Shown here: piece by piece, positions 2,411 through 10,308 of the stretch
How positions within the stretch are numbered: the stretch's first letter is position 1
How the letters are laid out: every line of letters begins with the position of its first letter
DNA from: Sphingomonas bacterium
GTDB lineage: Bacteria; Pseudomonadota; Alphaproteobacteria; Sphingomonadales; Sphingomonadaceae
DNA: 38,896 nucleotides
Direction of reading: 5' to 3'
Assembly (NCBI RefSeq): GCF_903643035.1
Contig: NZ_CAHJWW010000003.1
Location: 1-38,896 of the forward strand
The notes under the pieces: model-generated
Told to the model about the DNA's origin: nothing
Databases searched by the model: none
Seen by the model: the letters and a program-made list of their open reading frames with translations, nothing else
Program-made: the position numbers and the translations under genes

Positions 2411-2436
2411 CCCGTTCGTGCTGAGCTTGCCGAAGG
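2411..2436. repeat. Dispersed palindromic repeat, copy A (single arm)
   Basis: The minus strand of 2420-2435 reads CTTCGGCAAGCTCAGC. It differs at one base from the core inside dnaE (7622-7637) and at two from the copy at 2938-2953. It lies 27 bases after the receptor stop codon. I infer a member of a dispersed repeat family; only one arm is recognisable here. Confidence 0.6.
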
Positions 2437-2896: not shown

Positions 2897-2961
2897 TCGA
2901 AGCACCGTCCTTCGTCGCCCGGTGAGGGAGGGCAGAGCTTCGACAGGCTCAGCCTGGACGG
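2897..2961. repeat. Dispersed palindromic repeat, copy B
   Basis: CTTCGACAGGCTCAGC at 2938-2953 differs by one base from the core in the dnaE insertion (7622-7637). TCGAAGC near 2898 can pair with GCTTCGA at 2937-2943, giving a short inverted repeat. This is an intergenic copy of the same family as copies A, C and D. Confidence 0.65.
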
Positions 2962-6599: not shown

Positions 6600-9500
6600 A
6601 TGTCACACTCCGGGTTCGTGCCGCTCCGCGTCTTCTCCTGCTATACGATGCTGGACGGTGCCATCGAACCCAAGGCGATTGCGAAGCAGGCGGCGAAGCT
6701 CGGCTTTCCAGCGACCGCGCTGACCGACCGCAACGGACTTTACGCGGCGATGGCCTTTTCCGATGCGGCGGCGGCGATTGGCGTCCAGCCGATCATCGGC
6801 ACGATGCTGGCGGTGGCGCGGCCCGGCATGCCCGCAGGCGTGGCGGCGCCGATCGACTGGCTTGCGCTCTATGCCCAGGACAAGCCCGGCTATGACAATC
6901 TGTGCGCGCTCGTCTCGATGGCACATCTCGATCGACCGGCGGAGCTTGTGGCGCATGTCGACCTGTCGCTTCTCGAAGGCCGTACCGAAGGACTGATCGC
7001 GCTCACGGCCGGTGGCGAGGGCGCGCTCGCAAGGCTGTTCGCCGAGGATCAGCCGGCGCGGGCGGAAGCCTATGCCGATCGACTGGAAACGTTGTTCCCC
7101 GGCCGGCTGTACGTGGAGATCGTGCGGCGCGACGATCCGGTGGAGACCGCCGCGGAAGGCGCGCTGATCGACCTTGCCTATGCGCGAAACCTGCCCCTCG
7201 TCGCGACCAACCCGTGCTGCTTCACCGACAGCGGCTTTGGTCAGGCGCACGACACGATGCTGTGCATCGCGCATTCGACCTATCTGGAGGCAGAGGACAG
7301 GCTGCGCAGCTGTTCCGAGGCGTGGATGAAACCCGCCAAGGCGATGGCAAGGCTGTTCGCCGACCTGCCCGAGGCGATCGCGAACACGCTGGTCGTGGCG
7401 CAACGGTGCGCGGTCGCGGCGCCCAAGAGGAAGCCGATCCTTCCAAGCCTCGCGGGCGATCCGGAGGCCGAAGCCGAAGCACTGCGCGTCGATGCGCGCG
7501 CAGGGCTTGAGGCACGGTTGCAGCGGATCGCGGACCTCAGGGGGCTCGCCTGCCCGATCTCCGCCAGCCCCGGGCCTGTCGAAGGGCGCCCTCCTTTGCA
7601 CACCGGAGAAGACAGGCAGGGCTTCGACAAGCTCAGCCCGGGAGAACGGGGGGCCGTCCCGGCAGACTGGACGCAGCCCTATCGCGAGCGACTGGAGTTC
7701 GAGCTCGCCGTCATCATCCAGATGGGGTTTCCCGGCTATTTCCTGATCGTCGCCGACTTCATCAAGTGGGCCAAGGATCACGACATCCCGGTCGGACCGG
7801 GGCGCGGGTCGGGCGCGGGCAGCGTCGTCGCCTGGTCGCTGACGATCACCGATCTCGACCCGCTCGCGCTCGGCCTGCTGTTCGAGCGGTTCCTGAACCC
7901 CGAGCGCGTGTCGATGCCGGACTTCGACATCGACTTCTGCGAGACGCGGCGTGGCGAGGTGATCCGCTACGTTCAGGAAAAATACGGCCGCGACCAGGTG
8001 GCCCAGATCATCACGTTCGGCAAGCTGAAGGCGCGAGCCGTGCTGAAGGACACGGGCCGCGTGCTTCAGATGAGCTATGGGCAGGTCGACCGGCTGGCGA
8101 AGCTCGTGCCCAATCACCCGACCGATCCATGGACGCTGAAGCGTGCGATCGACGGCGTGTCGGAGCTGCACAAGGAGTATCGCAACGACGACGGCGTGCG
8201 TCGGCTGCTCGACCTGGCGATGAAACTGGAGGGGCTGCCGCGCCATTCGTCGACGCACGCCGCGGGCGTGGTGATCGGCGACCGGCCGCTTGCGCAGCTC
8301 GTGCCGCTGTTCCGCGATCCGCGGTCGGACATGCCCGTCACGCAGTTCGACATGAAATATGTCGAAGGCGCCGGGCTGGTGAAGTTTGACTTCCTTGGCC
8401 TCAAGACGCTGTCGGTGCTCCAGAAAGCCGTCCGGCTACTCGCCAAGCGTGGCGTCGCGATCGATCTGGATGCGCTGAGCTGGGACGACGAGCGCGTCTA
8501 TCAGCTGCTCCAGCGGGGTGATACGGTCGGCGTGTTTCAGCTTGAGTCGGAAGGGATGCGCCGTACGCTTTCCGCTGTACGTCCGTCCAACTTCGGCGAC
8601 ATCATCGCGCTCGTGTCGCTTTATCGGCCAGGGCCGATGGACAGTATTCCAAGCTTTGGTCGCCGCAAGCAGGGCACCGAATCGATCGACTATCCGCACG
8701 CGCTACTCGAGCCGATACTAGCCGAGACGTACGGCATCTTCGTCTATCAGGAACAGGTGATGCAGGCGGCGCAGGTGCTCGCCGGCTTTTCGCTGGGCGG
8801 CGCAGACCTGCTGCGCCGCGCGATGGGCAAGAAGGTAAAGGCGGAGATGGACGCGCAGCGCGCCGGCTTCGTCGAGGGCTGTCGGACCGTCAACGGGATC
8901 GGGACCGCGGATGCCAATGCGCTGTTCGATCTGATCGACAAGTTCGCAGGCTATGGCTTCAACAAGAGCCACGCCGCCGCCTACGCACTGCTCGCCTATC
9001 AGACCGCCTGGCTGAAGGCGCATCATCCGCACGAGTTCTATGCCGCGTCGATGTGCTTCGACATGGACCAGACCGACAAGCTTGGGCTGTTCGTGGAGGA
9101 TGCGAGGCGACTTGGCGTGGCGGTGCTCGGGCCTTGCATCAACGCCAGCGAGCCCGGTTTCGATGTCGAGGCGATCGACGAAGGGCTCGCGATCCGCTTT
9201 GCGCTCGCGGCTTTGAAGTCGGTCGGTGAAGGAGCGATGGAGCGGCTGGTCGCCGAACGGGCGGGGCGTGGGGCGTTCGCCTCGCTCGACGATCTGGCCG
9301 CGCGCGTCGATCCGCGACTGCTCAACAAGCGGCAGCTGGAGACGCTCGCCGCCGGCGGAGCCTTCGACGGCATCGATGCCAACCGCGCCGGCGTCCATGC
9401 CGCCGCCGAGACGATCCTGGCGGTCGCCACGCGCACGCAGGAGAGCCGCATCAGCGGTCAGGGAGGTCTCTTCGGATCGGAGAGTCAAGCCGGCGACGCG

Positions 9501-10202
9501 ATCCGCCTCTCCGGATCGGTACGCTGGGATCTGCAGCAGCGGATGGAAGCGGAAAAGGAGGCGTTCGGCTTCTACTTTTCCGCGCATCCCGTAGACCGTC
9601 ACCGTCATCTGGCGGCGATGCACGGCGCGCGCGCCTATGCGGCTTTGGGGGAACTGGCCATCCCGAGCGATGGCAGCCGCGCGGGCGCGACGATGGCGGC
9701 GCTGGTCGAGGACGCGCGCTGGCGCACCTCGGCAAGGGGCAAGCGGTATCTGATGGCGACGATGTCGGATGCGAGCGGCCAGTATGTCGCGACCTGCTTC
9801 GACGATGCGGTGGCGAAGGAGCTGGAGACGGCCGCAGCGGCGGGCGGCTGCGGGCTGGTCACCGTCGAACTCGATCGCCGGCCGGGCGAGGAGACCCCGC
9901 GGGTGACGGTACGCCGGATCCAGCCGTTCGAGGCGCTGGCCAGTACCGCGCGCTTCGTGATCGATGTCGACGTGGCCGATCCGGCGGCGTTCGCCCTGCT
10001 GGCAGGACTGCTGGACGATCACCGCGGCGCGCGCGGAGAGGTGCGGGCACAACTGACGCTTGTCGGCGGCGAGGAGGCGACGGTGTTGCTGGGCCGCGAC
10101 TTCCTGCTTGATGCGGAGCTCGCCGGCCGGATCGAGGGCATCGCGGGGGTTACGGCGGCACGGCTGCGCGGTTCGGAGACGAGATTGTCGTTGGTGGGAT
10201 AG
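6600..10202 (+). CDS. dnaE: DNA polymerase III alpha subunit, with in-frame repeat insertion
   Basis: This is the replicative polymerase subunit (about 1200 aa). Order: PHP domain (about 1-280), palm with VGPGRGSGAGS and the catalytic acidic pair in MPDFDIDFCE, a third carboxylate in VKFDFLGLK, the fingers/tau region, a helix-hairpin-helix region (FAGYGFNKSHAAAYALLAYQ) and a C-terminal OB fold (about 1010-1080). Residues about 318-353 form an extra Gly/Pro-rich segment encoded by a palindromic repeat (7566-7658), just before the conserved YRERLEFELAVI. The first PHP metal motif is degenerate (LRVFS where active forms have LHxH), so intrinsic proofreading is unlikely. Start ATG 6600 is preferred; an in-frame GTG lies at 6594. 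The frame is intact throughout, so the insertion is translated. Confidence 0.96.
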   Translation: MSHSGFVPLRVFSCYTMLDGAIEPKAIAKQAAKLGFPATALTDRNGLYAAMAFSDAAAAIGVQPIIGTMLAVARPGMPAGVAAPIDWLALYAQDKPGYDNLCALVSMAHLDRPAELVAHVDLSLLEGRTEGLIALTAGGEGALARLFAEDQPARAEAYADRLETLFPGRLYVEIVRRDDPVETAAEGALIDLAYARNLPLVATNPCCFTDSGFGQAHDTMLCIAHSTYLEAEDRLRSCSEAWMKPAKAMARLFADLPEAIANTLVVAQRCAVAAPKRKPILPSLAGDPEAEAEALRVDARAGLEARLQRIADLRGLACPISASPGPVEGRPPLHTGEDRQGFDKLSPGERGAVPADWTQPYRERLEFELAVIIQMGFPGYFLIVADFIKWAKDHDIPVGPGRGSGAGSVVAWSLTITDLDPLALGLLFERFLNPERVSMPDFDIDFCETRRGEVIRYVQEKYGRDQVAQIITFGKLKARAVLKDTGRVLQMSYGQVDRLAKLVPNHPTDPWTLKRAIDGVSELHKEYRNDDGVRRLLDLAMKLEGLPRHSSTHAAGVVIGDRPLAQLVPLFRDPRSDMPVTQFDMKYVEGAGLVKFDFLGLKTLSVLQKAVRLLAKRGVAIDLDALSWDDERVYQLLQRGDTVGVFQLESEGMRRTLSAVRPSNFGDIIALVSLYRPGPMDSIPSFGRRKQGTESIDYPHALLEPILAETYGIFVYQEQVMQAAQVLAGFSLGGADLLRRAMGKKVKAEMDAQRAGFVEGCRTVNGIGTADANALFDLIDKFAGYGFNKSHAAAYALLAYQTAWLKAHHPHEFYAASMCFDMDQTDKLGLFVEDARRLGVAVLGPCINASEPGFDVEAIDEGLAIRFALAALKSVGEGAMERLVAERAGRGAFASLDDLAARVDPRLLNKRQLETLAAGGAFDGIDANRAGVHAAAETILAVATRTQESRISGQGGLFGSESQAGDAIRLSGSVRWDLQQRMEAEKEAFGFYFSAHPVDRHRHLAAMHGARAYAALGELAIPSDGSRAGATMAALVEDARWRTSARGKRYLMATMSDASGQYVATCFDDAVAKELETAAAAGGCGLVTVELDRRPGEETPRVTVRRIQPFEALASTARFVIDVDVADPAAFALLAGLLDDHRGARGEVRAQLTLVGGEEATVLLGRDFLLDAELAGRIEGIAGVTAARLRGSETRLSLVG
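7566..7658. repeat. Dispersed palindromic repeat, copy C, inside dnaE
   Basis: The arms are 7569-7584 and 7622-7642. The outer seven bases (cccgggc / gcccggg) and about nine inner bases (ctgtcgaag against cttcgacaag) pair, with a five-base bulge in the right arm and a loop of about 37 bases. The core CTTCGACAAGCTCAGC (7622-7637) matches intergenic copies at 2420-2435 and 2938-2953 with one mismatch each. It is read in frame within DnaE as about 30 residues. Confidence 0.8.
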
Positions 10203-10249
10203 GCAGCGGTCTCCACCTCCGCTCGTACCGAGCCCGTCAGAGCATCGTC

Positions 10250-10288
10250 CTTCTTCGAAGCGACGGGCGCCCTTCGAAGAAGCTCAGG
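10250..10288. terminator. Perfect 11-bp hairpin between convergent genes (repeat copy D)
   Basis: CTTCTTCGAAG (10250-10260) and CTTCGAAGAAG (10272-10282) are perfect inverted repeats around an 11-base loop. It continues as CTCAGG, so CTTCGAAGAAGCTCAGG resembles the repeat core in copies A-C. It sits between the ends of dnaE and the facing glycosyltransferase and could stop transcription from both sides, though no T-run is present. Confidence 0.55.
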
Positions 10289-10308
10289 GCAAACGGATGT
10301 GGGGTGGA

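Follow-up and report, generated by a model that had tools for sequence, protein, structure and literature searches.

Palindromic repeats that sit in frame inside bacterial genes are already known as a general kind, from the Rickettsia palindromic elements (RPEs), one of which lies in Rickettsia DnaE, and from intragenic REPs. The REPIN unit consists of an inverted REP pair with a spacer. According to passages of PMC3767692, the DNA polymerase III alpha gene contains RPE-4 in R. japonica, R. conorii and R. africae and RPE-6 in R. felis; a hotspot is weighed there against common origin, and common origin is favoured for RPE-4, -6 and -7 without the hotspot being dismissed. The main-text parts of PMC3733652 describe GTAG/CGTC REPs inserted in frame into genes for replication and repair, among them those for DnaE2 and for the DnaE of R. 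conorii; S. alaskensis and E. litoralis also have intragenic copies; same-site insertion is reported for recB of Xanthomonas and different sites for other genes, and those parts name no Sphingomonas DnaE1 case. In the open-licence literature that we searched, no DnaE case from Sphingomonas is reported.

We analysed a 38,896-nucleotide stretch of DNA (the window), which is contig C3 of its own Sphingomonas draft genome (2,846,736 bases, 339 contigs, 78.41% complete). The features that bear on its dnaE gene are these:

6600..10202, plus strand: dnaE, encoding the DNA polymerase III alpha subunit (DnaE1), 1200 amino acids, with a palindromic insert inside the frame (open frame; NCBIfam, Pfam).
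7551..7658, plus strand: extra DnaE segment, residues 318-353 (about 36 amino acids), with approximate edges (linker length against relatives; pLDDT).
7561..7587, minus strand: left unit of the REP-A doublet, its 5' tail degenerate and its stem GCCC/GGGC retained, read S-P-G-P-V-E-G (alignment with own-genome copies; frame).
7619..7649, plus strand: right unit of the REP-A doublet, with stem GGGCT/AGCCC and tail GAACGG, read G-F-D-K-L-S-P-G (exact core; alignment with own-genome copies).
2420..2435, minus strand: lone REP-A core with one mismatch; no single open frame with coding signal spans the core.
2938..2953, plus strand: lone REP-A core with one mismatch (L010); an open frame spans the core, with no Pfam match.
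About 10270..10296 (10247-10296 at widest), plus strand: degenerate REP-A copy immediately downstream of dnaE (sequence by eye).

The protein belongs to DnaE1: the NCBIfam equivalog NF004226 scores it at 1269 bits against a cut-off of 1002, and the error-prone model NF004225 at 607 bits, below its cut-off of 939. Pfam recognises PHP (9-176), DNA_pol3_alpha (354-600), finger and HHH_6 domains. The linker from PILP to YRERL spans 82 residues as against 40-54 in 78 of 110 loci, which bears out the original prediction that some 36 residues (318-353) are extra; because the insert is defined as the excess over short linkers, its edges are approximate. E. coli alpha has about 14 residues in the corresponding gap. 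An AlphaFold model of modest confidence (mean pLDDT 67.9, 39 sequences) places residues 321-353 between helices 288-314 and 359-375, in a loop whose pLDDT, below 50, is among the lowest of the model; this is weak evidence of disorder, because parts of the polymerase core score equally low. The predicted position between the PHP and polymerase domains agrees with both the domain limits and the model.

Positions 7561-7649 are confirmed to hold two head-to-head units of REP-A (core CTTCGACAAGCTCAG), a palindromic repeat spread over the genome; the pair lies in frame inside DnaE1 and supplies most of the extra residues, and the frame is open throughout. The whole-repeat reads are GCCCCGGGCCTGTCGAAGGGC (7567-7587) and GGGCTTCGACAAGCTCAGCCC (7619-7639), the 16-base core at 7622-7637 is exact, and the arms at 7574-7584 and 7622-7632 are complementary at 10 of 11 positions, so that the inverted repeat claimed to encode the extra residues is present. 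At up to three mismatches the core CTTCGACAAGCTCAGC has four matches in the window against 0.41 expected, a number reached by none of 100 shuffles. Both intergenic one-mismatch copies claimed earlier were recovered, as was the altered one near 10272-10288, in the form of the degenerate copy listed above.

The core is repeated across the window's own genome, as had been anticipated: a 15-base core with at most one mismatch occurs 23 times (11 forward, 12 reverse) against 0 forward and 2 reverse for the reversed control pattern, the contrast being weak at two mismatches (38 against 25 for the control). Fifteen of the 23 copies form inverted pairs spaced 34-55 nt start to start. The unit is short, palindromic and multi-copy per genome, inversely paired and mostly extragenic, as REPs are. 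Aligned copies resemble CCGTTC..TGAGC(C/T)TGTCGAAG ... CTTCGACAAGCTCA..GAACGG, and the three bases flanking the right unit pair with each other in several (GCC/GGC in L005, GTG/CAC in L007, GGG/CCC in L021) and are unpaired in others. The DnaE copy has kept this flank pairing in both units (GCCC/GGGC; GGGCT/AGCCC); it looks older than the intergenic copies, because its 5' tail has decayed and about four bases have been added ahead of its 3' tail.

Residence inside a gene is rare for these repeats. Only one of 16 own-genome elements, the DnaE copy, lies in a gene supported by both frame signal and a Pfam match, and so does one of another 40, taken from G031, G073 and G066 (among the matches listed, dnaE copies excluded). 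Four other candidates, L010 (window 2938), L279, L282 and L287, are open in one frame without a Pfam match and were left uncounted. In G031, a CCCCTCCCGC element lies in frame in glyS, which encodes the beta subunit of glycyl-tRNA synthetase (L277; C1 1119800-1122400, about 1271-1372), and shares its family with the DnaE insert of that genome.

We then read the linker across the genus. In an even sample it was readable in 98 of 101 genomes (G007, G012 and G084 gave fragments only), and 11 of the 98, ten plus G088, bear a palindromic insert. Among the matches listed for 295 genus genomes, 66 gave DnaE as an unsplit match, which indicates a long linker; we read every one of the 66, and 32 contain a linker motif. 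Ten additional genomes picked from the list gave one insert, in G262 (L265). The genus total, G088 included, is 34 genomes with inserts among 158 read, of 295. The motifs fall into six families: REP-A; CCCCGGCCTTCGCCGGGG (CGTC-like); CCCTCTCCCC palindromes; TTCTCGACTTCGCTCGA; CCCCTCCCGC palindromes; and CCCCTCCCCTTCAGGGGAGGGG (L241). Alignment of related DnaE sequences, proposed with the original prediction, uncovered no single conserved segment; most linkers are short, and other relatives bear different palindromes at the same place. The window insert belongs to a larger set of insertions that occurred in parallel and involve several families, which goes beyond what was first claimed.

The inserted family is multi-copy in its own genome in 13 of the 14 insert-bearing genomes checked, with 8 to 445 matches, reversed-pattern controls giving 0 to 3. 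Counting both strands, REP-A matches number 23 in the window genome, 160 in G062, 43 in G073, 94 in G088 and 23 in G101; CCCCGGC, 445 in G022 and 16 in G102; and TTCTCGAC, 131 in G079 and 167 in G010. G003 has 41 CTCTCC palindromes and G066 has 8, of which two lie within dnaE; CCTCCCGC palindromes number 94 in G031 and 148 in G103. Insert and genome agree in family: G022, with its 445 CCCCGGC and zero REP-A matches, has a CCCCGGC insert in DnaE, and G003, with 41 CTCTCC palindromes and zero CCCCTCCCGC, a CTCTCC insert. The remaining genome is G019 (L038), with a single match to its motif-assigned family; that family is unsure, because CCTCCCGC was assigned by a loose pattern and G019 has one such palindrome. 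Repeat abundance alone does not predict an insert, since the insert-free genomes G001, G016, G021, G090 and G034 also contain several of these repeats.

Several linkers have features of their own. L113 has a CCCCGGC insert of CGTC-like appearance with a CCA tail. In the L222 linker a second palindrome seems nested within the first, and L038 and L082 are similar. A further CCCCTCCCGC palindrome stands at G031 C1 90178-90199, just after a dnaE match bearing two of them. Long linkers without motifs run through whole clades (L245-L258, L040, L042, L043, L232, L242; PAPWED and GWDRPHHGD types) and could be old, decayed inserts; these and other motif-less types were excluded from the insert counts.

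An assembly or binning artefact might be suspected, the window coming from a 339-contig, 78% complete draft. We give this next to no weight: the same pattern recurs in genomes listed as 99-100% complete, some of them one contig (G010, G217, G253, G266, G275), and in records named S. gilva, S. lenta and S. immobilis.

The linker is strongly enriched for these motifs. Among 194 distinct DnaE sequences, 33 have a linker motif from one of the six unrelated palindromic families, against a mean of 0.74 (maximum 3) of 194 for codon-shuffled linkers. The linkers, 16,239 bp in all, contain 120 pattern matches, and the remaining coding DNA examined, 638,049 bp, contains 17, where the base-pair totals skip rows in which no start motif was found and overlapping patterns are counted repeatedly; this enrichment is partly circular, because the motif families were defined after viewing the inserts. 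Ten of the 17 matches outside the linker sit at a second site, residues 823-851 of four rows in the numbering of that count. This site, readable in 132 of the 194 tree rows, lies near window residue 855, where the model predicts the turn of a beta-hairpin between strands 855-859 and 862-866. Ten rows of one species group (L066, L067, L121, L143, L152, L200-L203, L205) have the insert SPA(K/E)AGAQ(T/S)G there; L204, L164 and L103 have others, and L207 is also listed at the site. The PHP-polymerase linker of sphingomonad DnaE is, on this evidence, an insertion hotspot, and the parallel use of one site by different families appears to be new.

To follow the history of the inserts we used a tree of the 194 DnaE sequences with the two insertion sites removed (quick method, LG+G4, a single support value). 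Presence or absence of an insert requires at least 18 changes on it; once family states are added the number rises to 26, and counted over the insert-bearing tips alone, the six families require at least 15 switches. Near relatives have empty sites or different occupants. L037 has an insert and L071 none, with DnaE 97.1% identical; the CCCCGGC insert is in L037 and L265 and lacking in L071 and L260 of the same small clade; L045 and L107, 94.4% identical in DnaE, differ in family; and the close relatives L241, L230 and L236 bear three different families. In the largest tree the rows closest to the window are L212, L211 and L226, which bear two other families. Two smaller trees make the window sister to L061, a lichen-derived draft; a single insert common to the two looks doubtful, since the largest tree separates them and their stems, spacers and right-arm frames differ.

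Inheritance does account for some of the sharing. TTCTCGAC inserts cluster on the tree beyond chance (1 of 500 shuffles is as low), so part of their sharing is inheritance, and inserts are common to the neighbours L035/L217/L219, L221/L223, L045/L233, L227/L228, L032/L213 and L037/L265. Extending this to one ancestral DnaE insertion from which all of today's sequences diverged is very improbable: the six families differ in sequence and the inserted one is repeated in its own genome in 13 of the 14 checked, the family switches on the tree are many, and near-identical relatives lack an insert. That different families inserted in parallel in one place points instead to a hotspot of tolerance.

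We consider it very probable that a mobile REP doublet inserted in frame in the PHP-polymerase loop, that its translation product is a peptide which the enzyme tolerates and which is probably unstructured, and that such insertions survive in this loop and, less often, at the second site. Repeats of at least six unrelated families would reach dnaE through their ordinary genome-wide spread; copies adding neither a stop nor a frame shift would persist, later to decay or give way to others. In the window, a head-to-head doublet would have landed in frame between the PHP and polymerase domains, and the predicted beta-hairpin turn near residue 855 would be a second, lesser tolerant loop.

An alternative is that the loop attracts insertions. 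A mobilising enzyme, or local DNA structure in dnaE, could draw palindromic repeats to the site, with tolerance secondary. In four sequences the left arm of REP-A starts at linker base 144 (three sequences) or 141 (one), as a preferred target would produce, but this could equally reflect shared ancestry; the apparent nesting of one palindrome in another in L222, and similarly in L038, and the three families in the close relatives L241, L230 and L236 also fit attraction. Against it, the first arms of eight inserts from other families start at seven different points, from 111 to 173, a second and unrelated loop of DnaE also takes inserts, and linker length varies even where there is no motif (40 to 100 residues). 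We judge attraction unlikely and favour a loop that tolerates, with the repeats moved by a putative mobilising enzyme.

Beyond the genus, we sampled 397 genomes of the family, 96 genera having a match. Linkers of other genera also contain inserts: REP-A in L311, L312 and L314, TTCTCGAC in L318 and L320, and CTCTCC in L316; those of L315 and L317 resemble TTCTCGAC by inspection only. A 24-row clade of related genera has a conserved linker of 75-82 residues, 'YYPE..AEL.EAL....F.KL...G..DEV'. Linkers outside the clade were checked in the 28 best-matching loci, one without a readable gene; the YYPE linker looks derived, because none of 25 class-level loci outside the family has it, nor do L358 and L359, which represent two other family genera. 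Its length exceeds that of the short form by about one REP doublet, and it falls in REP reading frames. In 4 of 23 rows (L329, L333, L341, L345) REP-A matches both arms beyond the expectation from protein sequence (P ≤ 0.03 each, uncorrected), and most of the other rows resemble REP-A in amino acids only. An ancient REP doublet, acquired by an ancestor of other family genera, may have been domesticated as a conserved DnaE segment, a reading of these sequences that we hold tentatively and rate at somewhat less than even; the alternative is that repeats arrived again at the same place. If the former is true, a selfish repeat would have turned into a conserved piece of a replicative polymerase.

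Within the genus, the inserts have the marks of translated sequence. Both flanks lie in one open frame in 33 of 33 sequences, the exception among the 34 genus inserts being the frame-shifted G088 (L206); that linker lengths are multiples of three is an artefact of how linkers were cut and is not evidence. In L206 (G088 C1 426450-430690) the dnaE with its REP-A insert is split over frames by more than one break, possibly sequencing indels. The REP-A left arm is read as the polar VRAE(P/L)VE or a decayed form of it in 12 of 12 partly non-independent rows, and never in the more hydrophobic open frame. Inserts common to neighbouring species have pN/pS of 0.14-0.89, with pN of 0.00-0.09 in the flanking linker codons, a pattern that fits a translated, weakly constrained peptide; the insert peptide is probably present in the DnaE protein. 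Hairpin bypass elements are known elsewhere, and by that precedent the insert could be in the mRNA and yet be absent from the protein, through translational bypass or excision. A skipped element need not stay in frame, however, and no stop interrupts the frame between the flanks in any genus insert other than that of L206, so that we regard bypass or excision as extremely improbable.

The segment could also be kept for a function, a DNA or mRNA hairpin or the peptide itself tuning polymerase synthesis or activity. Synonymous divergence is lower in the insert than in its flanks in three groups (L035/L217/L219, L221/L223, L045/L233), at 0.12-0.17 against 0.31-0.43 in flanking linker codons for the first, and both the conserved linker of related genera and the four rows that keep REP-A DNA in both arms would suit such a role. 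Other shared inserts, however, have no synonymous deficit, the rate in the insert being above that of the flanks in L227/L228, L039/L228 and L037/L265 and about equal in L032/L213; amino acids are weakly constrained; and most DnaE sequences read have no insert at all. Folded as RNA, the insert DNA of the window does no better than its shuffles (z +0.95), and an RNA hairpin as the selected feature of the window copy was rejected for this reason. We consider retention for function improbable.

The sphingomonads offer a natural experiment in which one loop of an essential enzyme has received unrelated mobile palindromes in different species. It suggests that new protein segments can come from repeat DNA even in a protein thought unforgiving, and cultured species are available in which removal of the insert could reveal its effect.

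Compared with known systems, REP-A shares with REPIN/RAYT the inverted REP pair with spacer as unit. The RAYT domain Y1_Tnp is present in 3 of 20 genomes (G010, G088, G090), with none in the window's 78% complete draft and none in the insert-bearing G003, G031, G066, G022, G073 and G079 (listed as 99-100% complete); with so narrow a distribution, RAYT is doubtful as the mover. Like the GTAG/CGTC REPs of the PMC3733652 main-text parts, REP-A forms dimers, as those often do, and CGTC REPs are there without a dedicated transposase; unlike them, its ends (CCGTTC..GAAG / CTTC..GAACGG) carry neither the GTAG nor the CGTC tag by inspection. The closest likeness, already drawn in the original prediction, is to the RPEs and is apt, in that the Rickettsia gene for DNA polymerase III alpha contains RPE-4 or RPE-6 (PMC3767692): in both cases an in-frame palindrome of similar size (114 nt there) sits in the same essential gene, and orthologues hold different groups of element. 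Its position is solvent-exposed in Rickettsia; the window copy, in an open frame, occupies a loop exposed by prediction, at modest confidence. The likeness appears to be one of behaviour. According to the same passages (PMC3767692) all Rickettsia orthologues have an insert, whereas here most species read are empty and the families differ; sphingomonads allow a direct test of the question of origin versus hotspot raised for Rickettsia, and our data favour the hotspot.
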